Assembly (NCBI RefSeq): GCF_900107455.1
Contig: NZ_FNQB01000005.1
Location: forward strand, 434,001-498,000
Direction: 5' to 3'
DNA from: Asanoa ishikariensis
Lineage (GTDB): Bacteria > Actinomycetota > Actinomycetes > Mycobacteriales > Micromonosporaceae
DNA: 64,000 nt
Shown: one piece after another, positions 30,561 through 63,524 of the stretch
How positions within the stretch are numbered: position 1 is the stretch's first letter
How the letters are laid out: every line of letters starts with the position of its first letter
Notes under the pieces: generated by a model
Databases searched by the model: none
Seen by the model: only the letters and a program-made list of their open reading frames with translations
Told to the model about the DNA's origin: nothing
Made by a program: the position numbers and the translations under genes

Positions 30561-30581
30561 TGGTCTGGACCTTTCGGAGAA

Positions 30582-30623
30582 CGAAAAAGGGGCCGTGAGC
30601 CGCCATTTCTGGCGGCCCACGGC
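30582..30623 (-). terminator. strong intrinsic terminator between the VirB4-like and VirD4-like genes
   Basis: Minus strand: 15-bp stem (GGCCGTGGGCCGCCA with TGGCGGCTCACGGCC, one G-U pair), GAAA tetraloop, then CCTTTTTCG. It lies 50 bases after the VirB4-like stop and 20-odd bases before the next start. It is the only hairpin of the backbone with both a tetraloop and a clear T-run. Confidence 0.85.
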
Positions 30624-30675
30624 CCTGGGATGGTTGTGTTAGCTCACAGCCGGTTCGGCGGAGGCGCGTGCGGAT

Positions 30676-32475
30676 TCACTCGTCGTTGGGCAGTTCCAGG
30701 TCTCCGATGCACAGCTGGTGTTCCCGCTTGTGCGCCACGGCTTGGAAGCCGACGCGGTGGGCGCCCGAGATCAGCAGGCCCTCGCCTCGGCGGGAGGTGA
30801 GCAGGATCCGTGCCTCACCGCCGGTGAGCCCGAACGCGTCGGCGACGAGATCGATCGCCTGCGGTGCCTGCCGCAACAGGATCTGCGTGGCGGCGTTGGC
30901 GATGACGACCTGCCCGAGGTCGGAGCCGAGCAGGTCACCCACGTCCTGGGTGATGACTGCCAGGCCAGCTCGCCGTTTACGGGCGGATTTCGACAGGCGC
31001 GATAGGAACTTGGCGCCCTCGCCGTCACGCAGCAAGGTCCAGGCCTCGTCGACCACGACCAGCCGCCGCGGGGTGTCCGCCGAGTGCACGGCTGGGGTGT
31101 CGACCTCCCGCCAGATCGCGTCGAGCGCGAGGAGCATCCCGGGAGCGCGTAGCTCGTCGGCGAGCTGCCGCGTCGACCAGCACACCAACTGTCCGCTAGG
31201 GACAGTTGTGGTCGGCCCGTCGAAAAGTTCCCGGAACGAGCCTGTCGTCCAGGGCGTCAGGCGCGCCGCGAGCGTGTCGGCGGCGTCGGTGCTCTGGTTG
31301 TTGAGCGCGGTGGCGACGTCCCGTAGCAGCGGCGCCTGCCGGTGCCAGGTGTTCGGGTCGTTGGAGATCCCGGCCTGGTCGTAGGCGTCGTTGATCGCCT
31401 TGTCCAGCGCGGCTCGCTCCGACGGCGGCGGCTGTTGCCCCAACAACACCGAGATCAACGTGTGCAGGAACAGTGCGCGGTACGTGCGTGCCTGCGGGCG
31501 GAGGTCGCCCGGCGGGATGTCCAGTGGGTTGAGGCGGACGCCGCCGGCGCCCAGTGCGATGGTGACACCGCCGACCGCGTCGGCCAGGCGGATGTACTCG
31601 TTGTCCGGATCGATCACTGCCACGTGCACGTTGTCGGCCAGCGAGCGCAGCACTTCGAGCTTGACGAAATAGCTTTTGCCGGCGCCGGAGCGGGCGAGGA
31701 CAACGCTGTTGGCGTTGTCTTGCGCCCACCGGTCCCACCACACGACGCCGTTGCTGTCCGGGTTCAGGCCGTAGAGCATGCCGCCGGTGGCGCCGGGCTC
31801 GCCGGGCAGCGGCGCCGGTAGATCGGCTGAGGCTAGCGGGAACGCCGACGCGATCGCGTCGGTGTCCATCACTCGGCGCATCTCGAGCCCGTCCGTGGCT
31901 AGGGGCAGGGTGGCGGTCCAGCCCTGCAGCTGCCGCCATGTCGCGGGTTGGGTGTCCAGCAGCACGGAGGCGGCGGTGGCCCGCACATGCGCGACCGCGT
32001 CGTCGAGCTCGTCGAGGCCGGCGGCGTGCACGCACAGGTAGAGCCCGACGCGGAAGAGCTTGCTGTGGCCGCGGGCGATCCGGTCAGCGAGCTCGGCGGC
32101 GTCGTCGGCGGCGGCCTCGGTGATCGGGTCGACCAAGCGGCCTTTGTCCGAATCGGTACGCCGATTGGACTCCAACCGTGCGCGCTGCTTACGCAGACGG
32201 GCCGCGGCCACCGTCGGGGCGAGGGGGTCGATGTAGACGACGACGTCGAGCCGGCCGGGCCAGGCCAGCAGCGGGTCCAACCACGCCGGGCCGACCACGG
32301 CCGGGTAGCCGGTGACGATCAGTGTGGCCGCATACCCGTCTCCGACCCGCAGGTAGCGGGGGGTGTTCTGGATTGCTGCCGGGCCCAGAACGGCCGCGAG
32401 CCCGGCCGCATCGGCCGGGCTCGCGTCGGTAGATGTCGGGCTTCGTCGTGGCAGCAGGCGCTGCAACATGGACAT
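30676..32475 (-). CDS. VirB4-like conjugative ATPase
   Basis: 599 residues; ATG 32475 with CAGGAGA. The N-terminal domain (GYAATLIVTGYPAVVGPAWL) is followed by ATPase motifs LARSGAGKSYFVKLEVLRSL (about 258) and RRLVVVDEAWTLLRDGEGAK (about 470), then ITQDVGDLLGSDLGQVVIAN, in which the QDV and N residues are typical of VirB4/TraE. It powers pilus or channel assembly of a type IV secretion system adapted to a Gram-positive envelope. The gene starts two bases past the PrgI-like stop. Confidence 0.87.
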   Translation of the reverse strand: MSMLQRLLPRRSPTSTDASPADAAGLAAVLGPAAIQNTPRYLRVGDGYAATLIVTGYPAVVGPAWLDPLLAWPGRLDVVVYIDPLAPTVAAARLRKQRARLESNRRTDSDKGRLVDPITEAAADDAAELADRIARGHSKLFRVGLYLCVHAAGLDELDDAVAHVRATAASVLLDTQPATWRQLQGWTATLPLATDGLEMRRVMDTDAIASAFPLASADLPAPLPGEPGATGGMLYGLNPDSNGVVWWDRWAQDNANSVVLARSGAGKSYFVKLEVLRSLADNVHVAVIDPDNEYIRLADAVGGVTIALGAGGVRLNPLDIPPGDLRPQARTYRALFLHTLISVLLGQQPPPSERAALDKAINDAYDQAGISNDPNTWHRQAPLLRDVATALNNQSTDAADTLAARLTPWTTGSFRELFDGPTTTVPSGQLVCWSTRQLADELRAPGMLLALDAIWREVDTPAVHSADTPRRLVVVDEAWTLLRDGEGAKFLSRLSKSARKRRAGLAVITQDVGDLLGSDLGQVVIANAATQILLRQAPQAIDLVADAFGLTGGEARILLTSRRGEGLLISGAHRVGFQAVAHKREHQLCIGDLELPNDE

Positions 32476-32476
32476 G

Positions 32477-33415
32477 TCAGTCTCCTGGTCCGGTGACGGC
32501 TTGATCGGGCAAGGCGCGGGCCCAGCTGGCGTCGCTCGGGGTGTACGGGTCGGTGGCGCAGGCGAGTACCGCGGCAGCCCGGCCGCCGTCCAGGACGGCG
32601 GTCTGCGCCCCCAACGCGGACAGAGCGGAGGCTGCGTGTTCGGCGCGGCGCAGCACTTCGGTGTCGCGGCCCTTGTCGCCGGCCGCGGTGACCGCGACGG
32701 TCACCGTTCGCCACAACGGGTCCCGTCGCACGGCCAGATCGTCCAGGAACGCCGCGTAGTCGTGCGCGGCGCCGGCCAGCGCGGGATTGCCGATGGTCTC
32801 GGCGTTGTCGACGATGCGCTGGGCGTGGCCGGACAGGTCGACTCGCTGGGCGGAGATCACGATCTGCACCGGTCCGGACAGCGAGTTCAGCCACCGGCCG
32901 TAGCTGCCGATCAGGGCGGCCTGCTCGTCGCCGTTGCGCAGCCCGATGTTCACGGTGGTGGAGGCGACCAGGGCCACCGCGTGCGACCCGGCGTCGATGA
33001 CGCCGGCGTCGCTGATCGCGTTGGCCGGCAGCCGCAGCACCGGTACGTGCGCGGCTGGTGCCTCGGTGGATGGGGTCCACGCCGGTGCGGTCGCGGGCCG
33101 ACCTGTTGCGGCTGGGGCCAGCCGCTTCGCACTACGGGTGTGCTGCACCGCGGCCAGTAGCCAGGCGTCCATGGACAGCCCGTCGCGGCGGCCCAGCGCG
33201 AGGACGGTGGCAGCCCCGGCGAGCGGGATGAGGATGGCGATGAGCACCGTCTGCGGAAGGAGGCCGCCGACGGAACGGAAGATGCCGTAGCCGAGCACGC
33301 CGGTTACGGCGAGGATGGCCAATTGCCGTGCCGTCAATCCGTAGACGATCTTGTCTGGGGTGTCGACGTCGGCGGGAATCCGGGTTTGTGGGGACGCGTC
33401 GTCGTTACCCCTCAT
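32477..33415 (-). CDS. PrgI/VirB3-like membrane protein
   Basis: 312 residues. Early motif IPADVDTPDKIVYGLTARQL, then two adjacent membrane helices (LAILAVTGVLGYGIF and TVLIAILIPLAGAATVLAL) give the PrgI-family N-terminus, the VirB3 equivalent of Gram-positive T4SS. The C-terminal 200 residues form a soluble alpha/beta domain (GPVQIVISAQRVDLSGHAQR) seen in the long actinobacterial versions. It overlaps the stop of the 70-residue gene by 11 bases and precedes the VirB4-like gene, as VirB3-VirB4 pairs usually do. Confidence 0.78.
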   Translation of the reverse strand: MRGNDDASPQTRIPADVDTPDKIVYGLTARQLAILAVTGVLGYGIFRSVGGLLPQTVLIAILIPLAGAATVLALGRRDGLSMDAWLLAAVQHTRSAKRLAPAATGRPATAPAWTPSTEAPAAHVPVLRLPANAISDAGVIDAGSHAVALVASTTVNIGLRNGDEQAALIGSYGRWLNSLSGPVQIVISAQRVDLSGHAQRIVDNAETIGNPALAGAAHDYAAFLDDLAVRRDPLWRTVTVAVTAAGDKGRDTEVLRRAEHAASALSALGAQTAVLDGGRAAAVLACATDPYTPSDASWARALPDQAVTGPGD

Positions 33416-40369: not shown

Positions 40370-40909
40370 TTGAGCCATCGAGAGGGTATCCGCGAGTTGT
40401 ATCTCGCTAGCTACCAGCGGCTGGTGTTGCAGCTCTACCCGGTGACTGGCGAACTTGGCGAGGCCCAGGAGGTCGTTCAGGAGGCGTTCGTCAAGTTGCT
40501 CGCCGCGCCAAGCCAGCTGTCCGGGTTGAGCAATCCGGAGGCCTGGTTGCGCACCGTGGCCGTAAACCTCACCCGGACCCGGCGACGGCGCGGAAGGGTT
40601 TTGCAACGGCTACTCGGACGGGTCGGCGCCGGGTCAACCGACGTGCCGGGCGCCAGCCCAGACCACGTCGCGCTGATGTCGGCGTTGCGCGCGCTGCCGG
40701 CCGGGCAGCGTGAGGCGATCGCCCTGCACTACCTCGCGGACCTTCCGATCACCGAGGTTGCCGAACTGCTCCAGGTCTCGGTCGGCACGGTCAAGTCACG
40801 GCTGTCCCGCGGCCGCACAGCGCTAGTCGGCCTGCTCGGCGAGCATCCCACCAACGACGACCTTGAACGCACCCACTCGAACCCACGCAGGAGCGCCCGT
40901 CATGTCTGA
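40370..40909 (+). CDS. ECF sigma factor, cassette 1 (start codon altered)
   Basis: 179 residues from TTG 40370. Region 2 (YLASYQRLVLQLYPVTGELG, EAQEVVQEAFVKLL, NPEAWLRTVAVNLTRTRRRR) and region 4 (LPAGQREAIALHYLADLPIT, EVAELLQVSVGTVKSRLSRG) are complete. Homology to the paralog at 49098-49643 continues upstream of TTG (RAHDWKASLSHRE against RAQDWTALLSHRE), but there the ancestral leaderless ATG has become ATA and one extra C shifts the frame. The gene therefore probably uses the weak TTG or is poorly expressed. The stop overlaps the next gene, a membrane protein likely to control it. Confidence 0.82.
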   Translation: MSHREGIRELYLASYQRLVLQLYPVTGELGEAQEVVQEAFVKLLAAPSQLSGLSNPEAWLRTVAVNLTRTRRRRGRVLQRLLGRVGAGSTDVPGASPDHVALMSALRALPAGQREAIALHYLADLPITEVAELLQVSVGTVKSRLSRGRTALVGLLGEHPTNDDLERTHSNPRRSARHV

Positions 40910-42155
40910 CGTGAACGATTACTACGACCGCACGGCGGTGGCCGCCCGGGTCACCGCACCGCCGTTCGCCGAGCTGGTAGACCGGAGCCAGCACCGCGCT
41001 CGCCGCGCCCGGAAAGCTCGGCTGGCCGGTGTGGCCGTGCTCTCGCTGCTGACCGCCGGGCCTTTGCTGGCCCTGCCGGGTGGGAGCGCGCCGAATACGC
41101 CAGTGGCAGCTCCATCGCCATCTGTACGAGCGTGGAGCTCCTTCGATATCATGATCGAGTTTTACGACACCCACTTCGGCGTCGCGCAGTACCCGGGCGA
41201 GTCCTGTGGCGAGGGGTGGCTCTCGGTCACGCAGGATGGCGGAAAGACCTGGAGCGAGCTGCGCGCGCATCCGAAGATCCCCGACTTGTCCGCCCGGACG
41301 GCCACACCCGGGGAGCCCGCCTGCATGAGGCCGGCGGCGATGCTGACTGCCCCGGACACGCTGGTGATGGCGGCCACGATGCGGCAGTCACAGCTGGCCG
41401 GTGGGCCGGCCTACATCAGCCACGACAGGGGAAGGAATTGGCGGGAGTATCAACCACAGGTACGGGTCGCCGACTCGGTGCCGGCCGGTGTGATCCCTCG
41501 GTGGCGCTGTGACGAGCAACGCTGCAAGGAGGAGGGGCTCGGCTGGTACGACCCGGTGACCGGTGACTGGATGGTCCTGAAGAACCAACCCCCAGGTGCT
41601 AACTACATCAGCGTCACGGGGGCGTTCGACGACAGCATCTGGGTGGACGGCTCCGGCCCCGACGGCTCCGGACAATTCCAGCTGGCGGTCAGTCACGACC
41701 GAGGTCGAACCTGGCTGGACCGAACCCCGAAGGAAGACATCGACTGGTTGGCACGCGCGGGCTCCCTCACCGCATTCGACGGAAGCACCGCCTACCTCTA
41801 CCCGATGATGGACACCACGCAGCCTGATCCGTTTTCCCTGTACCGCACCACCGATGGCGGCAAGACCTGGCTACCGGCGCCAGCCGCGCAGGAGTTCAAA
41901 GACGTCGTGTTCGTGTGGACGAACCGCCAGGGCGCACTGAACATCGCGGACCTGACTCACCATCAGCACCTGAGCATGGACGGCGGCAATACGTTTGCCG
42001 ACATCACATCGCCTGTGTGGGGGGCGACGCATATAACGGGAGGCCTCCAAGGTTGGCCGATCGACGTCGCCGCGGCGGATCCCGTCGACATGTACCTCAG
42101 CGACGACGGAGTCACCTGGCAGCCAGTCGAGATTCCCTACTATCAGCGGTCCTGA
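40902..42155 (+). CDS. single-helix membrane protein with Asp-box beta-propeller, cassette 1
   Basis: 417 residues; ATG 40902 with AGGAG, overlapping the sigma stop. A cytoplasmic N-terminus of about 40 residues (DRTAVAARVTAPPFAELVDR) and a membrane helix (LAGVAVLSLLTAGPLLALPG) are followed by an external domain with Asp-box repeats: VTQDGGKTW, SHDRGRNW, SHDRGRTW, TTDGGKTW, SMDGGNTF. Asp boxes mark sialidase/BNR-type propellers. The arrangement sigma factor plus short cytosolic tail plus external sensor suggests an anti-sigma-like receptor, although no canonical anti-sigma zinc motif is present. Close paralog of 47748-49076. Confidence 0.75.
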   Translation: MSDVNDYYDRTAVAARVTAPPFAELVDRSQHRARRARKARLAGVAVLSLLTAGPLLALPGGSAPNTPVAAPSPSVRAWSSFDIMIEFYDTHFGVAQYPGESCGEGWLSVTQDGGKTWSELRAHPKIPDLSARTATPGEPACMRPAAMLTAPDTLVMAATMRQSQLAGGPAYISHDRGRNWREYQPQVRVADSVPAGVIPRWRCDEQRCKEEGLGWYDPVTGDWMVLKNQPPGANYISVTGAFDDSIWVDGSGPDGSGQFQLAVSHDRGRTWLDRTPKEDIDWLARAGSLTAFDGSTAYLYPMMDTTQPDPFSLYRTTDGGKTWLPAPAAQEFKDVVFVWTNRQGALNIADLTHHQHLSMDGGNTFADITSPVWGATHITGGLQGWPIDVAAADPVDMYLSDDGVTWQPVEIPYYQRS

Positions 42156-47747: not shown

Positions 47748-49076
47748 TCACCGCCGGCGTGCGCTCCCGCACGCCACGAACGACTCAGGCAAAATTTCGG
47801 TGCTTCCGACGCGACATTGGGACCGCTGGTAGTAGGGAATCTCCACCGGCTGCCATGACAGGCCGTCTTCGCTGAGGTACAGGTCGACGGGGTCTGCTGC
47901 GGCGACGTCGATCGGCCAACCTTGGAGGCCGCCGGTGATGGGGGATGCCCCCCACACAGGCATTGTGGTAGGTGCGAACGAGTTGCCGCCGTCCGTGGTC
48001 AGGTACTGGTTACGTTTCAGGTCCGCAACGCTCAGTCCGCCTTGGCGGTTGGCCCACACGAACACGACGTCTTTGAACTGTTGCGCGGCCATCTGAGGGT
48101 GCCAGGTCTTACCGCCATCGGTGGTGCGGTACAGCGAAAACGGGTCTGACTTTGCGGTGTCGCTCATCGGAAAGAGGTAGGCGGTGTTGCCGTCGTACGC
48201 GGTGACCAAGCCCGCGTGGGCGAGCCAGTCGATATCTACGGTCGGGGTTCGGTCCACCCAGCTACGGCCTCGGTCGCGGCTGACCGCGAGCTGGAACTCG
48301 CCGGAACCGTCACGTCCGGAGCCGAGGACCCACATGCTGCCGTCGAACGCCACCGACACACCTACCAGCTCTACCCACGGGGGTTGGTTCCTCAGAACCA
48401 TCCAGTCGCCTGCCCCGGGGTCGTACCAGCCGAGCCCCTCCTCCTTGCATGGTCGCTCGTCGCAGCGCCACTGCGGGACGATCCCGTCCGGCACCGAGAC
48501 CGCGGCCCTGACCCGCGGTTGATACATTTGCCACGACTGGCCGCTGTCGTGACTGATGAAGGCTGACCCTCCATCCGGGCCAGACTGTGGGTAGGTCACT
48601 GGGATTACGAGCGTGTCTGGAGCGGCCAACACTACGGCGGTCCTCACGCAGCCAGCGTCGCCATCACTGCCATCCTCAGGTTGATTGGACGGGTCTGGGA
48701 TTCTGGGAAGCGCGCGTAGCTTGCTCCATGTTTTCCCTCCGTCCTGCGTGACCGAGATCCACCCCCCGCCACAGGACTGGCCCGGGTACTGCGCTACGCC
48801 ATAACGAATGTCGAAGAACTCGACCGTGATTTCGAAGGCGTTCCACGCCGGCGGAGACGTTGTCGGAAGGGCCACCGGGGAATTCGGTGCGTTCCCACCG
48901 GGTAGGGCCAACAGCACCCCGGGGGTCAATACGAGGAACGCCGCCACAATGGCCAGGCGGGTATTGCGGATGTGATGGGCGCGGCGGCGGCTTCGATCCA
49001 CCAGCTCGGTGAAGGGCGGCTGGGTGATCTGGCCAGAGACCGCCGTACGGTCGTAGCGGTGGTGCACCTCAGACAT
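47748..49076 (-). CDS. single-helix membrane protein with Asp-box beta-propeller, cassette 2
   Basis: 442 residues; ATG 49076, 21 bases past the sigma stop. Cytoplasmic start YDRTAVSGQITQPPFTELVD, membrane helix NTRLAIVAAFLVLTPGVLLA, then an external propeller with Asp boxes VTQDGGKTW, SHDSGQSW, SRDRGRSW, TTDGGKTW and TTDGGNSF. It is the close paralog of 40902-42155 and is 25 residues longer at the C-terminus (QCRVGSTEILPESFVACGSA), with two extra Cys. Probably the membrane sensor and regulator of the sigma factor encoded just upstream. Confidence 0.77.
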   Translation of the reverse strand: MSEVHHRYDRTAVSGQITQPPFTELVDRSRRRAHHIRNTRLAIVAAFLVLTPGVLLALPGGNAPNSPVALPTTSPPAWNAFEITVEFFDIRYGVAQYPGQSCGGGWISVTQDGGKTWSKLRALPRIPDPSNQPEDGSDGDAGCVRTAVVLAAPDTLVIPVTYPQSGPDGGSAFISHDSGQSWQMYQPRVRAAVSVPDGIVPQWRCDERPCKEEGLGWYDPGAGDWMVLRNQPPWVELVGVSVAFDGSMWVLGSGRDGSGEFQLAVSRDRGRSWVDRTPTVDIDWLAHAGLVTAYDGNTAYLFPMSDTAKSDPFSLYRTTDGGKTWHPQMAAQQFKDVVFVWANRQGGLSVADLKRNQYLTTDGGNSFAPTTMPVWGASPITGGLQGWPIDVAAADPVDLYLSEDGLSWQPVEIPYYQRSQCRVGSTEILPESFVACGSARRR

Positions 49077-49097
49077 GGTCGGCGTTCCTCCATGAGC

Positions 49098-49643
49098 TCA
49101 CGTGAACACTCTTTCGGGCTTGTCGTCCGGGGCGGACTCTCTGAGCAGCCGCGACAATGCAGTTCGGCCACGCGATAGCCGTGACTTCACCGTTCCGGCC
49201 GAGACCTTCAGTAGGTCGGCCACCTCGGTAATCGGCAGATCGGCGAGGTAGTGCAAGGCGATCGCCTCGCGCTGCCCAGTAGGCAACGTGAGTAGTGCTG
49301 CCATCAAGGCGACGTGGTCCGGGCTGGCCCCGGGCACATCGGTCGACCTGGTGCCGGCGCGGCCGAGCAGCCGCTGCAAGACCTTCCCGCGCCGTCGCCG
49401 GGTGCGGGCGAGGTTCACGGCCGCGGTGCGCAGCCATGCCTCCGGGTTACCCAGCGTGGACACCTGGCTTGGCGCAGCGAGCAGCTTGACGAAGGCCTCC
49501 TGCACGACCTCCTGGGCCTCGCCGAGGTCGCCGGTCACCGGGTAGAGCTGTAACACCAGCCGCTGGTAGCTGGCGACGTACAGATCATGGATGAGCTCTC
49601 GATGACTCAACAACGCCGTCCAATCCTGTGCTCGGGCCTTCAT
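49098..49643 (-). CDS. ECF sigma factor, cassette 2, leaderless
   Basis: 181 residues; ATG 49643 (an upstream GTG at 49658 lies inside the promoter). Regions 2 and 4 are complete (YVASYQRLVLQLYPVTGDLG, LPTGQREAIALHYLADLPIT, VADLLKVSAGTVKSRLSRGR). Its promoter GGAACC-N16-CGTC ends seven bases before the ATG, so the transcript should start at the A of the ATG, without a leader. The same promoter before cassette 1 suggests autoregulation or cross-regulation of the two. Confidence 0.87.
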   Translation of the reverse strand: MKARAQDWTALLSHRELIHDLYVASYQRLVLQLYPVTGDLGEAQEVVQEAFVKLLAAPSQVSTLGNPEAWLRTAAVNLARTRRRRGKVLQRLLGRAGTRSTDVPGASPDHVALMAALLTLPTGQREAIALHYLADLPITEVADLLKVSAGTVKSRLSRGRTALSRLLRESAPDDKPERVFT

Positions 49644-49649
49644 ACTGGC

Positions 49650-49675
49650 GACGAACACGGCAGCCGAAAGGTTCC
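49650..49675 (-). promoter_or_regulatory. ECF-type promoter of sigma cassette 2
   Basis: Minus strand GGAACC (49675-49670), 16 bases, CGTC (49653-49650). The sequence between matches the cassette 1 promoter at most positions (TTTCGGCTGCCGTGTT here). Confidence 0.78.
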
Positions 49676-56149: not shown

Positions 56150-56700
56150 GGTGCGACAGTCCCGGATGCCAGGAGGGCCGCCATTTTCGACGCTCAGGTC
56201 AGCGCTTCGGGGTCGAGGTGGGTAGTAGAGCGGTTTGATGCCGATGCGGTCCCGGCAAGGGGTCAGTGCTTGGAGGCCGTCGACTCCATATCGCGAATGC
56301 GTACATGCCGTTGAGCCGGTCTAGTGCGGCAACGCCCATTGCTGCCAGGCGCGCAGGACGACCACGGTATCGGTGCGCGTGGTGAACAGGAACCGGCGGG
56401 ACAGCATGCCACGCAGTTTTGGAGCGTTGTGAGTCTCTCCGTTGTAGACGGTGGGGAGGTGGTCGCGCGTCATTGGCTAGTTCCCGGCGTCGCCCAGGTC
56501 AATGACCGCGAGCCGCCGGTGGCCTGGTGCCACGCCAGGTTGGTACCGGGATCCGGCGCCGTGCGGCCCACGGTGGGCGAGGGCATCGCTCATCCGGGTC
56601 ACGGCCGCGATGCGTCCTTCGGCGGTGCCGCCGTCGCCGCCGATGTGCAGGATGCCGGCGACCGCAGCGGGAGAACCGTACGGTCATGGTGCCGCCCTGT
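56150..56700 (-). pseudogene. asparagine synthetase (AsnB-like) glutaminase domain, broken
   Basis: Minus-strand pieces in more than one frame: AAVAGILHIGGDGGTAEGRI, ALAHRGPHGAGSRYQPGVAP, GHRRLAVIDLGDAGN stop, LPTVYNGETHNAPKLRGMLS, TRTDTVVVLRAWQQW, LDRLNGMYAFAI, GRDRIGIKPLYY (partly as RDRIGIKPLYY). These follow the order of class II amidotransferase domains of AsnB. The start Met-Cys is destroyed and several indels and stops occur. The synthetase half is missing. Confidence 0.75.
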
Positions 56701-56937
56701 CGAGCTGGCTATAGAGCCCGATGAGGTGGGCGAGAGCGGCGCCGTGCACACGCGACCTGTCGAGAATGCCTGATGATCAACCAGTGATGAATATGTGTAT
56801 CTAGATGCCAGAATCATTGGTGTTCCGATGGCCATTCGGGTGAATTCGTAGCACGGGTCGGTGCTATTAAGCGGCACCTGGGAAATGTGTCCAATGCCCA
56901 ACAGGGCGATGGTATTGAGTACAACACGGAGGATCGC
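56701..56937 (+). promoter_or_regulatory. promoter and leader region of the RiPP cluster
   Basis: Locally A/T-richer than the surroundings, with no gene of its own. The message must start here. An in-frame GTG at 56887 has only a weak ribosome site; the GGAGG five bases before GTG 56938 marks the better start. Confidence 0.5.
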
Positions 56938-57114
56938 GTGGAAAAAACCGCACGTGGCCAGGGCGGTAGCGCCTTGGCGGAGCTGGTCAACGAGGACCTC
57001 GAAGAAATTCTGGCCGACGCGTCGCCAGCGCTCAGGGCTTCGCTGGAGCGCCAGTACTCCGCGGATGCCGACAACAAGTTTGGGTTCTGTTCATTCCTGG
57101 ATGCCGACCTCTAG
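56938..57114 (+). CDS. RiPP precursor peptide, 58 residues
   Basis: GTG 56938 with CGGAGGATCGC directly upstream. The leader is acidic and helical (residues 12-38, ALAELVNEDLEEILADASPA), as expected for recognition by a maturase. The C-terminal core is KFGFCSFLDADL (47-58), with Phe at 48, 50 and 53, Cys 51, Ser 52, Asp 55 and 57. Three-residue cyclophane enzymes of the FxsB/XyeB/GrrM group act on aromatic-x-x motifs; F50-C-S52 and F53-L-D55 fit. The peptide is followed by an attenuator-like hairpin and the radical SAM gene 88 bases downstream. No homolog is recalled, so the exact class is open. Confidence 0.75.
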   Translation: MEKTARGQGGSALAELVNEDLEEILADASPALRASLERQYSADADNKFGFCSFLDADL

Positions 57115-57127
57115 CGGGGCGACTTGC

Positions 57128-57166
57128 AAAGGGGCTGCTCGGCATCTCGTGCGGGGCAGCCTCTTT
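57128..57166 (+). terminator. attenuator hairpin between precursor and maturase
   Basis: AAAGGGGCTGC (57128-57138), 17-base loop, GCAGCCTCTTT (57156-57166, one G-U pair), followed by CTTGC. Partial termination here would give more precursor than enzyme message, common in RiPP operons. Confidence 0.7.
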
Positions 57167-57201
57167 CTTGCTAGATTGCGGGTGGATTGCGGAGAGGGAT
57201 T

Positions 57202-58425
57202 ATGCAAATTGGCCCTGCTATAAACCAGGCCTGGCCGACCCACGGCCTGGATGTCGGCGCATTGCGGCGAGGTGGATGGCAGCCACAGCCGTTTAACGAG
57301 TTCATTCTCAAAGTTCACAGCAGGTGCAACCTCTCGTGTGACTACTGCTATATCTACGAGATGGCCGACGATGGTTGGCGGGGCCAGCCGCAAGTCATGC
57401 AGAAACCGGTCGTCATCGCCGCCTGCAAGCGCATCGAGGAGCACGTGCGGCAATTCGGCGTCCCGAGCGTCGCCATTGTCCTGCATGGTGGCGAGCCGCT
57501 GCTCGCGGGTCACGAGGTCATCGATGGACTGCTGCGGCAGGTCTCCATGACCGTGGCGACTGCGTGCCGTACGAAGATCGGGATGCAGACCAATGGCCTG
57601 CTGCTCGATGAGCGCTATCTGCGGATCTTCGACGAGTGGGACGTGCGCGTTGGGATTAGCGTGGACGGCGGGCGCGAGGCGAATGACCGCCACCGGCGGT
57701 TCCGCAATGGATCCGGCAGCTTCGATCAGGTGGCCAGCAAGATCGCTCTGCTCACCAGCGGCGACCGCCGCCGACTGTTCTCCGGGCTGCTCTGCACGAT
57801 TGACCTGGCCAACGACCCGGTCGGCACCTATGAATCTCTCATCGAGTTCGACCCGCCAGGCGTGGACTTTCTGCTGCCACACGGCAACTGGTCCGCGCCG
57901 CCGCCGTCGAGAAGCCCGGACTCGGAGTCGACGCCATACGGCGACTGGCTGATCGCGGTCTTCGACCGTTGGTACAACGCACCCCGCCTCGAAACACGCG
58001 TGCGCCTCTTTCGGGACATCATCCAATTGATCATTGGGGGCAATCCAACGTCGGAATCCGTGGGGCTATCACCCATTCGTCTCGCTGTCATCCAGACCGA
58101 CGGCACGCTGGAGCAGGTCGACACCCTGAAATCGGTTTTCGCAGACGCCGCCAGGATCGACGGACTCGCAAAGGACAGCCCGCTGGCACACGCTCTGTGG
58201 AATCCGTCGATCATCGCCCGGCAAATCGGTGTCGATGGGCTCTCCAAAACGTGTCAGGAATGCCCGGTCCGAACGGTCTGCGGTGGTGGGAACTACACTC
58301 ACCGATATCGTCGCGACACGGGATTCATCAATCCGTCGGTCTATTGCCGAGATCTCCTGAAACTCATTACTCACATCAGAACTGCGGTAACCCGAGACAT
58401 CGGGCGACTCGGAGGCGGGGGATAG
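57202..58425 (+). CDS. FxsB-like radical SAM/SPASM peptide maturase
   Basis: 407 residues; ATG 57202 with GGAGAGGG. FNEFILKVHSRCNLSCDYCY carries the radical SAM cluster Cys at 42, 46 and 49, followed by the FxsB-typical YEMADDGWRGQP. Other motifs: IVLHGGEPLLAGHE, MQTNGLLLDERYLRIFDEWD, VRVGISVDGGREANDRHRRF. The C-terminal SPASM-type Cys lie at 351, 354, 360 and 382 (CQECPVRTVCGGG). FxsB relatives install a C-C bond between an aromatic ring and the beta carbon of a residue two positions on. It sits between the precursor gene and the HExxH gene, four bases from the latter. Confidence 0.9.
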   Translation: MQIGPAINQAWPTHGLDVGALRRGGWQPQPFNEFILKVHSRCNLSCDYCYIYEMADDGWRGQPQVMQKPVVIAACKRIEEHVRQFGVPSVAIVLHGGEPLLAGHEVIDGLLRQVSMTVATACRTKIGMQTNGLLLDERYLRIFDEWDVRVGISVDGGREANDRHRRFRNGSGSFDQVASKIALLTSGDRRRLFSGLLCTIDLANDPVGTYESLIEFDPPGVDFLLPHGNWSAPPPSRSPDSESTPYGDWLIAVFDRWYNAPRLETRVRLFRDIIQLIIGGNPTSESVGLSPIRLAVIQTDGTLEQVDTLKSVFADAARIDGLAKDSPLAHALWNPSIIARQIGVDGLSKTCQECPVRTVCGGGNYTHRYRRDTGFINPSVYCRDLLKLITHIRTAVTRDIGRLGGGG

Positions 58426-58428
58426 GAG

Positions 58429-60237
58429 TTGCGAACATCGGAAGATAGGCGCCTCGTGGAGGACGTGGGCGCAGGCTACGGCCACCCCGAGACAATGCAG
58501 GCACTTCGCGCCAGCCAACTGAAAAGACGACTGATCATTCTGGCCACCTTGATCAATGAGGCATCGGAGCGGTGGCCAGGCGACGTCGAGCGCGGCGGTC
58601 TCCGGTCCGCATACGAGCGCCTGTGCGCGATAGACGAGCAACGCCCGCAATTGGTCGAGGAGATGCTGCTGTATCCCAACACCGGTGCCTGGTTGTCGTA
58701 CGCGATGCGACGGATAAGGCGAGGATCCGCATCGAACAAGCCATTGTGGCCTGATCTCGGCTATCTCGGTTGGCTCGCGGCCAGCGCCGCAGCTCAACTC
58801 GGGGAGGCCGGTGCGATGCCGGTGGTCATCCGAGCGGGCGTGGTGCTGCTGCCAGGGAAAGGACTAGCCAAACTATCCTCCGAGGAGGTAGATGGGGTAG
58901 GCGAGGTTCGGTGGGACCGTTCGGGCCTCCGCGACGTCCGCTGGTCGGCGGTTGAGGTTCGCGTGTGCGAACCGTCCGACGGCCAGGACGTGAGCTGGAA
59001 GCCACTGCGGGGGCTGCGATCGCCGCACGGCAACGGCCTCGAGGTGTATCTGGACGATGTGGATCCGTTCCGGCCCCTCGACCGGGTCCGGCAGACGTAC
59101 CCGGCCCATCCCACGGTTGGTCGGCTCGCGGACGACATGGCGCGCGAATGGCAGGAGAAGTTCGACGGCGCCTGGGAATTGTTGAACCGGGACTTCGGGG
59201 GATATGCCGCACCTATGGCGTCCGACCTCCGGGCGATCGTGCCGTTGACCGCGAGTCCGACGGGAGAGGGTGCCAGCAGCGCCTCCACGGAGGCCTTCGG
59301 CTCCATAAACATGTCAGCGCCCTCTGGCCAGCACCAGATGGCTCTGAACCTCATCCATGAGTTCCAGCACGCCAAGCTGGGGGCACTCACCGACATGGTG
59401 CGGCTACACGAGGAGTACGACCAACGCACGTTCTACGCTCCCTGGCGGGACGACCCGCGGCCCCTCGGCGGACTTCTGCAAGGCATCTACGCGCACATCG
59501 GAGTCACCGAGTTCTGGAGAGTGCATCGAACGCGCCCCGACGTGGACGTGGCCTTGGCCGAGGTCGAGTTTGCTCGGTGGCGGACCCAGGTCAACCAGGC
59601 CTTGGCGGAGGTCAGGAAGTCGGGCCTCCTCACGGTCGAGGGAGTTGTGTTCGTCGACGCCATGACGACGGCGGTACTGGGCTGGCGGGACGAGCGGGTC
59701 TCGGCGGAGGCGGACACCATCGCCGAGGAGACGTCCACCGCGCACTGGGTCGCGTGGTGTGTGCGGAATCTGGCGCCGCAGGCCGACACCGTACGCCAGC
59801 TCCTCGATCGCTGGTCGTCGGGACAGCCGGCCGGCGAGATACCTCCGAGTGAGCTCGTCGATCAGGCCCGCGTGCCCATGGGGCACCGCAGCGCGCTGTC
59901 GCCGAGCTACATGAAGCTGCTGGCGTCGCGCACTACTTTCGGCGGTACGCCGTCCGCAATCAAGCCTAGTCCGGGCGAGTCGGCCTTCATGCTGGGCGAC
60001 GACCACCAGGCGATCTCGCTGTTCGAACGGGAGCTGGCGGAAGACCCGATGCATCCACGGCCCTGGGCGGGCGTCGTGCTCGCAATTCGGCGCCGGTGTC
60101 CGGGCGCGAATCTCTCCCTCCTCCTGCGCCGTGCGGACGTGGTGGCCCACCTATTCGACGCGATCAGACGCGCCGGCGGGACGGGCGATCTGCTGTCGTT
60201 GTCGACCTGGTTGTCGGGCAGTGCTCGACATGACTAG
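58429..60237 (+). CDS. HExxH-motif putative peptide beta-hydroxylase
   Basis: 602 residues. TTG 58429 lies just after the maturase stop; GTG 58456 is an alternative, and homology to family N-termini (GAGYGHPETMQALRASQLKR) requires one of these. HEFQH at 310-314 sits in MALNLIHEFQHAKLGALTDM, followed by RLHEEYDQRTFYAPWRDDPR and PLGGLLQGIYAHIGVTEFWR, the hallmark of the HExxH proteins in FxsB-type clusters. Some of these were recently shown to be 2-oxoglutarate-dependent peptide beta-hydroxylases (recollection). It may hydroxylate an Asp of the FLDADL end. The stop overlaps the MFS start. Confidence 0.82.
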   Translation: MRTSEDRRLVEDVGAGYGHPETMQALRASQLKRRLIILATLINEASERWPGDVERGGLRSAYERLCAIDEQRPQLVEEMLLYPNTGAWLSYAMRRIRRGSASNKPLWPDLGYLGWLAASAAAQLGEAGAMPVVIRAGVVLLPGKGLAKLSSEEVDGVGEVRWDRSGLRDVRWSAVEVRVCEPSDGQDVSWKPLRGLRSPHGNGLEVYLDDVDPFRPLDRVRQTYPAHPTVGRLADDMAREWQEKFDGAWELLNRDFGGYAAPMASDLRAIVPLTASPTGEGASSASTEAFGSINMSAPSGQHQMALNLIHEFQHAKLGALTDMVRLHEEYDQRTFYAPWRDDPRPLGGLLQGIYAHIGVTEFWRVHRTRPDVDVALAEVEFARWRTQVNQALAEVRKSGLLTVEGVVFVDAMTTAVLGWRDERVSAEADTIAEETSTAHWVAWCVRNLAPQADTVRQLLDRWSSGQPAGEIPPSELVDQARVPMGHRSALSPSYMKLLASRTTFGGTPSAIKPSPGESAFMLGDDHQAISLFERELAEDPMHPRPWAGVVLAIRRRCPGANLSLLLRRADVVAHLFDAIRRAGGTGDLLSLSTWLSGSARHD

Positions 60238-61519
60238 CCACGGCGTTCTCCATAACAAGCAGTTCCTGTGGTTGTGGATCGGCAGCACGGTCTCGTTGGT
60301 CGGCACGTCTGGCGCCCATATCGCTTACCCGCTTCTCGTACTGACACTGTCAGGATCGCCGGTGTTCGCCGGTTGGGTGGCGTTCGCAGTCTTGCTGCCT
60401 GCGATACTTCTGCAGGTACCGGCCGGTCTGGTGGCCGATCACTCGAATCGCCGGCACGTCATGCTGGGGTGCCAGGCCGTCGGAGCGCTCGGTGCCGCGC
60501 TAGTCACCATCGGCGTTTACTACAACGTTTCGTTCCTCCTTGCGGTGCTGTTGATGGTGGCCTTCGTCGAAGGAAGCCTCTCCGTCGTCTTCACCGTCGC
60601 GCAGGTTGCGGCGATCCGGGACGTGGTGTCCGAGGAGCAGCGTGCGTCTGCCTTCGGCTGGTACGAAACGCAGCAGCCGTCGTCGCGTCTGGTGGGGCGG
60701 GCGATCGGATCCGCCCTGTTCGGTGTCACGCACTGGCTTCCGTTCGCGGTCAACTTCGCATCCTACGTTGGCACGCTCGGGACCCTCCTGCTCCTCCGAC
60801 CCTCCCGGTTCGAGCCGAGGCGCCAGTCGGGCCGACCGGACGCAAACTCGACCTGGGTCAATGTCAGTCGGGGATTCCGCTGGGTTTGGTCGATCCCGTT
60901 CGTTCGGGATGCCGCTCTGATCGTTGGGGCTCTGAATGCGGTCTTCCAGGTCGTCATCCTGGTCGTCATCGTGGCGGGACATGACGCCAACTGGCCATCG
61001 TGGATGGTGGGAATGGTCCTGGCCAGCACGGGTGTCGGCGGGATACTCGGTGGCCTAGTCGCGCCCCGACTTAATCGGCGATTTCCGCCGCGGCTCGTGT
61101 TCGCGGCGGGAACGGCGTGTTGGGCACTCTTCCTCCTGATGTTCGCAACGACCACGAACGCGGGTGTGGTGGCGCTGGCGTGGACCGGTGTCGGCGCCGT
61201 TGGAGCAGTCACCAACGTCGCGGTCAGTGTCTATTTGGTGGAAGCCGTGCCCGATGCGGTCTTCGGGCAGGCGGTCGGAGGCGTGGCGATGCTGAACACA
61301 ATGGCCGTGCCGCTCGGGCCCATAGTCGGTGGCTATCTCATCGACGCTTGGGGGACTCGGGCAACCGGCTGGCTGCTGTTCTGCGCGACGCTAGCGGTAG
61401 CGATATTCGCCAACCGGAGGCTTCGCGCGAATCGGGGTGGAGGGCACGGCCTTGCCTTGGTCTCGGGTGACCAGCTCGACCCGGACGACATGAACCGGCA
61501 GCAATCGGCAGTGAGGTGA
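60230..61519 (+). CDS. MFS exporter of the RiPP cluster
   Basis: 429 residues; ATG 60230 (GTG 60221 possible), overlapping the preceding stop by eight bases. Twelve helices with the loop motif GLVADHSNRRHVMLGCQAVG, and the drug-exporter-like FVEGSLSVVFTVAQVAAIRD and VVSEEQRASAFGWYETQQPS typical of the enterobactin-exporter-like MFS group. The second half starts SIPFVRDAALIVGALNAVFQ. Probably exports the mature peptide or its cleaved core; no dedicated protease is encoded nearby. Confidence 0.83.
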   Translation: MTSHGVLHNKQFLWLWIGSTVSLVGTSGAHIAYPLLVLTLSGSPVFAGWVAFAVLLPAILLQVPAGLVADHSNRRHVMLGCQAVGALGAALVTIGVYYNVSFLLAVLLMVAFVEGSLSVVFTVAQVAAIRDVVSEEQRASAFGWYETQQPSSRLVGRAIGSALFGVTHWLPFAVNFASYVGTLGTLLLLRPSRFEPRRQSGRPDANSTWVNVSRGFRWVWSIPFVRDAALIVGALNAVFQVVILVVIVAGHDANWPSWMVGMVLASTGVGGILGGLVAPRLNRRFPPRLVFAAGTACWALFLLMFATTTNAGVVALAWTGVGAVGAVTNVAVSVYLVEAVPDAVFGQAVGGVAMLNTMAVPLGPIVGGYLIDAWGTRATGWLLFCATLAVAIFANRRLRANRGGGHGLALVSGDQLDPDDMNRQQSAVR

Positions 61520-61567
61520 TGTGGGCATGTCTGCGACCAGTCCTCCCGGTCAGCTTCGGTGGTCGTC

Positions 61568-62680
61568 ATGCCACTAGCTGACCCGAATGCGCGGGCCCGC
61601 AGCGGGTTGCTGCTGGCGTCGTACTTCGACCTGCGCACGGCCGAGGGGCCGTTGCACGCTCAGTCCGTGGCCGACGTGGGCCGCAAGTTTCTGGCCGGCC
61701 AGCCGATCCCTCCCTATCAGGAGATTGCCCCGAGCATCCTGCGTCACATGATCATGATTGACGATCCCGATGTGCCGCGGATCAGTGATCCTAGGCAGTT
61801 GGCAGGGGCCAGGCGGACGGCTGAGTGGGACGCCCTCTGCGTGCAATTGGAGTGGTGGCCCAAGCTGGCGCCGGAAGCGCGCCTCCGGATCGCGCAGGTC
61901 CTGCTCAAGCTGGGCTTCTGGCGAACCATCGCTGTGCAATGCGCGGAACCGAACAGTCAGGTAGGGCCGCCGCCGGTCGCCCTCCAACTCCGGCGCATTC
62001 GGCACGTCGCCGAGACCAAGCTGGCCGGCCGGGACAACGTGATCTTCGCTCCTGAGTCCCATCCCGATCTCGTGCGGCTCGCAACTGGCGAGGAGAACGA
62101 GGTGTCAGCGAGGATCCCCGCGGCACTGAACCTGCTCATGCATCACGCCCGTTCGCCGGAGCGACCCGAGGAGCAGATCCAGCGGTGGAGCACACTCGCG
62201 CGGAGTCTCGTCGAGTCTGCTCCCTCGTCGTCGTTGAGCCCTATCCTCCTCAGTGCCTACTGGCGTGGCCTCAGCTTCATCTCCTTTCGGGGCGGCGCGC
62301 ATGCGGAGACCGCTGCCATGCTCGACGAGGCGGAATGGGCAGCGGACCGGGCCGTCGAGGAGGCGGATCCCGACCGGCGTCTGCTCGCCTGTGAGAACAG
62401 GTACCTAGTCGTGCTCACACGTGCCCGCGCCGCCGCGGCGGCGGGAATGTTCGATGCCGCGGAGCGGTTCCACCGATCCCTGGTACGGCAGGACCCGCTC
62501 AGTGCGCAGGCGCATGTACTGCTCGGCGAGTTCCTAATGGTCCGGGAGAGGTTCCACGAGGCGGTGCCTGCCTTCGCCACTGCGGCCCGCCTTGGCGCTC
62601 CATATAGCGGCTACGCCCGCAACCAGGCCATTCGTTGTGCCGCCTTGCTGAAGACACATCGCAAGCCGGCCGCGTCGTGA
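61568..62680 (+). CDS. TPR-like helical protein of the RiPP cluster
   Basis: 370 residues from ATG 61568 (GTG 61559 also in frame; neither has a good ribosome site). No catalytic motif. Helical throughout; the last third holds TPR-like repeats (FDAAERFHRSLVRQDPLSAQ, AHVLLGEFLMVRERFHEAVP, AFATAARLGAPYSGYARNQA). The first part (LLLASYFDLRTAEGPLHAQS, AEWDALCVQLEWWPKLAPEA) matches nothing I know. TPR proteins accompany FxsB-type systems (FxsT), but this one lacks an NB-ARC domain. A scaffold or recognition role is inference from context. Confidence 0.65.
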   Translation: MPLADPNARARSGLLLASYFDLRTAEGPLHAQSVADVGRKFLAGQPIPPYQEIAPSILRHMIMIDDPDVPRISDPRQLAGARRTAEWDALCVQLEWWPKLAPEARLRIAQVLLKLGFWRTIAVQCAEPNSQVGPPPVALQLRRIRHVAETKLAGRDNVIFAPESHPDLVRLATGEENEVSARIPAALNLLMHHARSPERPEEQIQRWSTLARSLVESAPSSSLSPILLSAYWRGLSFISFRGGAHAETAAMLDEAEWAADRAVEEADPDRRLLACENRYLVVLTRARAAAAAGMFDAAERFHRSLVRQDPLSAQAHVLLGEFLMVRERFHEAVPAFATAARLGAPYSGYARNQAIRCAALLKTHRKPAAS

Positions 62681-62735
62681 TCAGCTCCCCCGCAACCCTG
62701 CGCCCGCTTCGCTGGATCTCCCCGGAACAACGAGG

Positions 62736-63524
62736 ATGCCTGCGGTGACCGGCGCCGATCGCGCAGTCGAGCAGTACTACACGGCGCTCGCCGCGACCTA
62801 CTGGCGCCGTCCGCCGTACGCGCCACGTGCTGTGGACCGCATCGTCCAGGCTTCCGGCCGGCGTCCCCCGGTTCTGGTCGCGGACGTCGGCGCGGGTACC
62901 GGCCATCTCACCTTCGACCTGCTCACCCGAGGCTGTTTGGTTCACGCCGTCGAACCGAACGACGCGATGCGGGCCGTCGGGATGGCTCGCATCGGGCCGA
63001 GCGACAGCGTCACCTGGTCTGCCGGCACCGGGGAGAGGACCGGTCTGACCTCCGGGCACTACGATCTCGTGACGTACGGGTCGTCGCTCGACGACACCGA
63101 CCGGCCGCGGGCAATTCGAGAAGCCGCCCGCATCCTCAAGCCCGACGGTTGGCTTGCGTGTGCCTGGAACCGGCGGGTGCTAAACGACCCGTTGCAGGCA
63201 GAGGTCGAAGCGTTGATCCGGTCCCGGGCCCCGGAGTATGGGCACCGGCGGCGGAGCCGGGACCACGCCCGGATCATCGGGGAAAGTGGTTTCTTCCATC
63301 CGCCGAGAAGGCTGCAGGAGCGGCTGTGGCATACGGTCGCCATCTGCGACTGGATCACGGCGTGGCGTTCACATGTTCCGTTGCAACGGCGGGCTGGCGC
63401 CGCCTTCGACGCCATTGTGGATGAGATCGAGCGGCTAGTGCGTGACCGCGTGTCGGGCGACGAGCTCGCCGTGCCGTACGCGACCGTGGGATGGCTGGCG
63501 CCGGTGCGCGACCTGGCCCGCTAA
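62736..63524 (+). CDS. class I SAM-dependent methyltransferase
   Basis: 262 residues from ATG 62736. Motif I VADVGAGTGHLTFDLL (about 49-64), acidic end of strand 2 in AVEPNDAMR, GHYDLVTYGSSLDDTDRPRA (motif IV) and EAARILKPDGWLACAWN (motif post-I/VI). The layout matches UbiE/Methyltransf_11-type enzymes acting on small molecules or peptides. It begins 55 bases after the TPR-like gene in the same direction, so it may methylate the RiPP; no other substrate gene is near. Confidence 0.83.
   Translation: MPAVTGADRAVEQYYTALAATYWRRPPYAPRAVDRIVQASGRRPPVLVADVGAGTGHLTFDLLTRGCLVHAVEPNDAMRAVGMARIGPSDSVTWSAGTGERTGLTSGHYDLVTYGSSLDDTDRPRAIREAARILKPDGWLACAWNRRVLNDPLQAEVEALIRSRAPEYGHRRRSRDHARIIGESGFFHPPRRLQERLWHTVAICDWITAWRSHVPLQRRAGAAFDAIVDEIERLVRDRVSGDELAVPYATVGWLAPVRDLAR

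Follow-up and report, generated by a model that had tools for sequence, protein, structure and literature searches.

A probable operon for a Phe-x-Ser cyclophane peptide from a distinct FxsA/FxsB branch in Asanoa ishikariensis

FxSxx-COOH/FxsB systems (TIGR04268, TIGR04269, NF040586) are the closest described relatives of a probable operon for a ribosomally synthesized and post-translationally modified peptide (RiPP), which we analyzed in a stretch of 64,000 nucleotides of Asanoa ishikariensis (contig NZ_FNQB01000005.1, positions 434,001 to 498,000; hereafter the window). The accessible part of PMC7159879 places AP-ATPase/tetratricopeptide repeat (TPR) proteins next to FxSxx peptide-processing systems, in the setting of conflict systems, and these proteins probably correspond to the FxSxx_TPR family NF040586. 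In the triceptide system MscA/MscB, MscB joins C4 of a Phe to the beta-carbon of a Ser two residues on (PMC11002830, accessible part). According to the portion of PMC12636437 that is accessible, a fused HExxH enzyme hydroxylates Asp and His on the ready cyclophane, and the PflC/PosC HEXXH enzymes combine alpha-ketoglutarate (alphaKG)-HExxH chemistry with a precursor motif of four C-terminal residues (ARMD).

The window operon shares with the FxSxx-COOH/FxsB systems an FxsB above the family cut-off, an HExxH partner and a short precursor whose leader is related and whose core is F-x-S. In contrast to these systems, the clade to which it belongs has a tail behind FxSxx, usually of four residues, and carries no FxSxx_TPR gene and a major facilitator superfamily (MFS) gene instead. 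The window precursor fits no model, neither in NCBIfam as a whole nor TIGR04268 (FxSxx-COOH) at E<=5; most clade precursors are likewise without an NCBIfam model, although TIGR04268 matches 6 of 17 of them (best 5.8e-6). The predicted F-x-S ring, proposed here from the motif F-C-S, and the radical SAM/SPASM maturase recall MscA/MscB, whereas precursor and partners differ; the InterPro family of MscB, IPR026335, is presumably FxsB. Furthermore, FxsB resembles the solved radical SAM domain of ChlB (9gm3, E 2.2e-74) and the HExxH protein matches ChlH (8s5f), but unlike ChlB/ChlH the window has separate genes and an HExxH protein with a C-terminal extension. The predicted alphaKG-HExxH chemistry and the four-residue C-terminal motif are shared with PflC/PosC; in contrast to those systems, as far as the accessible part of PMC12636437 describes them, the window tail is DADL rather than ARMD, the clade tail also occurs without an HExxH gene, and an FxsB maturase is present.

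We lean towards the view that the window carries a RiPP operon from a separate branch of FxsA/FxsB systems and that this operon makes an exported Phe-x-Ser cyclophane peptide, probably hydroxylated at Asp, with a chemistry that we infer from related enzymes. Locus comparison shows the putative precursor, maturase, hydroxylase and transporter to be conserved together, with no FxSxx_TPR/NB-ARC partner. An initial annotation, which had proposed a RiPP cluster with an FxsB-type maturase and an HExxH partner, is supported in part: both proteins pass their family cut-offs (Table 1), and every element it listed was found in its place by direct reading of the sequence.

The FxsB clade and its gene neighborhood

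When 134 FxsB proteins were placed in a quick tree, all 35 MFS-linked rows (an MFS match above 240 bits within 7 kb) fell into one group of 41 rows with a support of 93 in the Shimodaira-Hasegawa-like approximate likelihood ratio test (SH-aLRT), and none of the 93 rows elsewhere was MFS-linked. The MFS label changed 7 times over the tree compared with 31.1 times in shuffles, none of 500 being as low. A weaker MFS match adjoins the cluster in L074 and L143, two loci just outside the clade. A homologue of FxSxx_TPR (NF040586) lies no more than 2,294 bases from FxsB (median 97) in 52 of the 57 outside-clade loci longer than 15 kb, a count that includes L079, the source of the query; L143, L152, L158, L078 and L074 are without one. 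Inside the clade, no such homologue was found within 6 kb of FxsB in any of 36 loci longer than 12 kb, and none lies near the window cluster. The flanks of these loci mostly reach at least 6.5 kb, with one short side (1.6 to 3.8 kb) in L111, L100, L082, L213 and L215; L229, whose FxsB is a fragment, was placed inside by its precursor and HExxH gene. The clade thus defined by its tree appears to be marked by its neighbors, with an MFS gene present and the FxSxx_TPR partner absent. This clade is the new point. Our search of the open-access literature, with subscription papers outside its scope, found no description of this FxsB branch.

The comparison bears out two features noted initially, the MFS gene and the lack of an NB-ARC/FxSxx_TPR partner, and the suggested distinct subfamily with the same core in independent clusters agrees with precursor homologues beside FxsB and a single tree group. 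Among 40 clade loci, HExxH genes occur in 29, MFS genes in 33 and TPR genes in 10 (MFS and TPR matches were counted anywhere in the locus, and some contigs are short). The TPR-like protein without NB-ARC thus has homologues in a minority of the clade loci; BLASTP saw no homology between it and the HExxH protein. The methyltransferase, once proposed as a defining part, was rejected as a core component, as no other annotated locus has a homologue (phmmer, E<=1e-5). Four FxsB genes of the host genome score at least 396 bits; two of them fall inside the MFS-linked clade, and the paralogous cluster L071 keeps the window order of precursor, FxsB, HExxH (alphaKG-HExxH in the window), MFS and TPR.

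The same neighborhoods bear on the possibility that the module is still an intracellular signaling or conflict system, with the MFS protein serving self-protection or being an unrelated neighbor and the TPR protein replacing the NB-ARC partner. This would agree with the AP-ATPase/TPR proteins adjoining other FxsB systems (PMC7159879, accessible part) and with the TPR genes of some clade loci. However, MFS linkage marks the whole clade and the TPR protein only a minority, and we regard an intracellular role as unlikely.

The precursor gene and its relatives

The small open reading frame (ORF) ends KFGFCSFLDADL, with the core F50-C51-S52-F53-L54 followed by the tail D55-A56-D57-L58. Its length of 58 codons, its GTG start and the missing model match would suit a chance reading frame, but homologous small ORFs keep the start region and the core while each of 20 shuffled precursor controls gave no hit, so that this explanation is already refuted and its probability is negligible. 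A single-query tblastn search (E<=1e-2) returned 79 hits in 67 loci, duplicates included; the search excluded seven loci that hold the window cluster or its flank. The 32 distinct sequences were all precursor-like small ORFs. The precursor alone matched L071, the second cluster of the same genome, at 4e-10, L073 at 1e-8 and L072 at 8e-7, each near FxsB; relatives also adjoin FxsB in Nocardia and in ten Actinoplanes-type genomes. The relatives share the leader motif ASPALRxxLxR and the core, and near relatives likewise start ME... at the same point, which supports the GTG start. Among 12 precursors ending in DADL (66 pairs summed), the last 11 codons hold 188 synonymous and 52 nonsynonymous differences compared with 448 and 627 over the last 30 codons, which indicates that protection in this frame falls on the core. 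The initial identification of the small ORF as the precursor thus holds well: far from lacking a homologous small ORF upstream, the related maturases have one.

A profile built from 17 precursors (A3; genome matches at E<=0.001) matched 14 of 150 genomes in the genus of G080, 13 of 300 in the host's family, 6 of 394 in a sample of the class (four of them weak) and, weakly, 5 of 297 in another family. FxsB was found in 25 of the 26 regions with precursor hits in that genus and the host's family (G270, a weak match, is left out), once as a fragment (L229), and L219 has none. Further weak precursor-profile matches were L164-L167, L201, L205 and L206, and the precursors of L233-L235, which end AFQSSL and lie near weak HExxH matches, are of the ordinary FxSxx-like kind. 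The ten Actinoplanes-type precursors end GGFNSFVDADL (nine) or GGFTSFVDADL (one). Seven Nocardia clusters lack an HExxH gene (L084, L085, L092, L094, L100, L107 and L222); they have in common a large upstream protein and precursors with the core repeated two to three times, and the upstream protein of L085, the one scanned, is an AAA/LuxR-type regulator (AAA_16 and GerE).

Three loci stand apart as observations of their own. L219 is an orphan with a precursor-like ORF ending GGFNSFISDSR and no FxsB, HExxH or MFS within 17 kb. L229 (8260-8550) is an Actinoplanes-type cluster with precursor, HExxH gene and an FxsB fragment of 84 bits, and is perhaps decayed. At the edge of the clade, L074 (7880-8683) has five overlapping or tandem precursor-like ORFs with differing (F/W)xxF cores, followed by one FxsB.

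Core, tail and the HExxH protein

The clade precursors combine FxSF(L/V/I) with a tail, which has four residues in 37 of 46, so that FxSxx is not C-terminal; in the window, FCSFL is likewise followed by DADL. Of the 69 precursors that an iterated profile recovered outside the clade, 40 stop exactly after FxSxx; the simple pattern behind this count misjudges some rows such as L119 and L079, and L119, L102, L114 and L122 show that tails also occur outside the clade.

The HExxH protein carries the motif HEFQH at residues 310-314 and matches the solved chains 22nu_A (4.6e-54, residues 12-428) and ChlH 8s5f_A (1.3e-8); the last ~175 residues form a C-terminal extension that neither match covers. 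We predict it to be an alphaKG-dependent peptide beta-hydroxylase. Its candidate target lies in the tail: 21 of the 27 HExxH-bearing clusters open it with Asp (19) or Asn (2), and none of the 10 HExxH-free clusters does (Fisher p 2e-5, rising to 9e-4 with one Actinoplanes-type cluster kept and to 0.015 for Nocardia alone); these p values are guides only because the rows are related. The tally scores repeated-core precursors on their last core and excludes both the orphan L219 and the second entries of duplicate genomes (e.g. L076 = L100, L223 = L149, L224 = L156). It also sets aside four precursors of L111, L213 and L215, loci with two FxsB genes and one HExxH gene, in which the residue is Ser twice, Asn twice and never Asp; the first precursor of L111 and that of L213 were not found.

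The same tail permits two other readings. DADL could be a tag at which the HExxH enzyme cuts the backbone oxidatively, leaving an amidated FCSFL and restoring the canonical five-residue FxSxx terminus. The prevalence of four-residue tails fits this, as does cleavage by PflC/PosC ahead of their C-terminal four-residue motif ARMD; yet HExxH-free clusters keep the same tail length and, in the accessible part of PMC12636437, Ala or Gly at the first position favored cutting by PosC and larger residues hydroxylation, while here Asp prevails. We consider such cleavage quite improbable. Alternatively, FxsB could form a second cyclophane on F53-L54-D55 in the Asp-tailed members, with the HExxH enzyme acting on the joined Asp. 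Both F53 and the Asp at +2 are conserved among Asp-tailed precursors, and Asp is an acceptor for other three-residue cyclophane enzymes (PMC11002830, accessible part). Many clade members, however, have Gly there and hence no beta-carbon, which leaves little probability for a second ring. Hydroxylation of a tail Asp beside a single F-x-S ring is the reading that we prefer.

Operon layout and proposed pathway

All operon genes lie on the + strand, with intergenic gaps of 3 to ~90 nt or overlaps, the MFS ATG overlapping the HExxH gene by 8 nt (Table 1). The maturase ORF opens with TTG, and the ATG after GGAGAGGG is the better start. Its CxxxCxxC motif reads CNLSCDYC, and C356, C359, C365 and C387, which we take to be the SPASM cysteines, are invariant in six relatives. 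The region 57112-57186 between precursor and maturase folds at -38.5 kcal/mol (z -3.61), and its hairpin might reduce read-through; in the L071 paralogue this gap has only ~33 bases. Near the precursor, a simple scan gave no terminator-like site and no sigma-70-type promoter was found.

Table 1. Features of the operon, with window positions and the basis of each assignment.
Feature	Position	Strand	Basis
Ribosome-binding site GGAGG	56928..56932	+	5 nt ahead of GTG; read from sequence
Precursor gene, 58 aa	56938..57114	+	GTG start 56938, stop 57112-57114; small-ORF homologues adjoining FxsB across many genomes
Core FCSFL, predicted Phe-Ser cyclophane F50-C51-S52	57085..57099	+	FxSF(L/V/I) conserved; cross-link predicted from MscB
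Tail DADL, four residues, candidate target of the HExxH enzyme	57100..57111	+	precursor comparison
Hairpin with 13-bp stem in precursor-maturase gap, possible attenuator	57128..57166	+	folding energy
FxsB radical SAM/SPASM maturase	57202..58425 (ORF from 57187)	+	TIGR04269, 453.5 bits (cut-off 370)
alphaKG-HExxH peptide hydroxylase (family assignment)	58429..60237	+	TIGR04267, 162.6 bits (cut-off 40); solved chains 22nu_A, 8s5f_A (ChlH)
MFS transporter, presumed exporter	60230..61519	+	PF07690; linkage to FxsB clade
TPR-like protein without NB-ARC	GTG 61559 or ATG 61568 to 62680	+	weak TPR matches
Class I methyltransferase	62736..63524	+	PF08241; adjacent, not conserved in family

Directly upstream of the precursor, short adjacent ORFs on the - strand (56199-56602) resemble the frame-broken start of an asparagine synthetase, and two of three tested match a glutamine amidotransferase domain (PF13522/PF13537). 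Elsewhere in the window, 40370-42155 (+) and 47748-49658 (-) hold a similar ORF pair in inverted orientation (judged by eye from the first residues), in each of which an ORF of 430-442 aa comes after a sigma-factor-like one of 179-186 aa, and large ORFs on the - strand at ~27972-33415 resemble conjugation genes by eye.

In the pathway that we propose, FxsB would join the Phe50 ring to the beta-carbon of Ser52 to give the three-residue cyclophane F-C-S, and the HExxH enzyme would next hydroxylate a tail Asp, most probably Asp55, at its beta-carbon. The leader would be taken off by a host protease, proposed because no protease gene was recognized in the operon. The MFS protein would export a short peptide, roughly GFCSFLDADL, and the TPR protein may be an accessory adaptor or regulator. 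Here, then, a peptide-processing module that is coupled elsewhere to a conflict protein inside the cell looks like a pathway to a secreted peptide.

Several points weigh against this pathway. Cyclophane and hydroxylation are both predictions from sequence, and the role of the MFS protein in export, its substrate and its direction are presumed. The clade comes from a quick tree at the support given above, and in the paralogue L071 an FxSxx_TPR-like gene, the only one seen inside the clade, lies on the opposite strand at a distance of 6,061 bases from FxsB. No MFS gene was found in 7 of the 40 clade loci, and in some (L089, L216, L217) it lies on the other strand. Moreover, the Asp position is occupied by G, S, A or T in six of the 27 HExxH clusters, so HExxH was rejected as a strict marker of Asp; a broken motif was rejected as the cause, since the HExxH motif is intact in all six. 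One middle core of the HExxH-free L084 does have Asp.

For the clade as a whole, we tentatively suggest that it may have left the NB-ARC-type conflict partner for exported natural products, namely short Asp-hydroxylated F-x-S cyclophanes with a conserved tail, some Nocardia members carrying two to three cores per precursor. To our knowledge, no role of FxSxx peptides in actinomycetes has been established. With its peptide-making enzymes retained, an exporter present and the conflict protein missing, this branch would provide a natural contrast to other FxsB branches, and the question of secreted product or internal signal therefore becomes testable. The branch also yields several precursors with repeated cores, and its matched sets of precursors and maturases, 27 with and 10 without the predicted hydroxylase, may be useful for locating the target of this enzyme.

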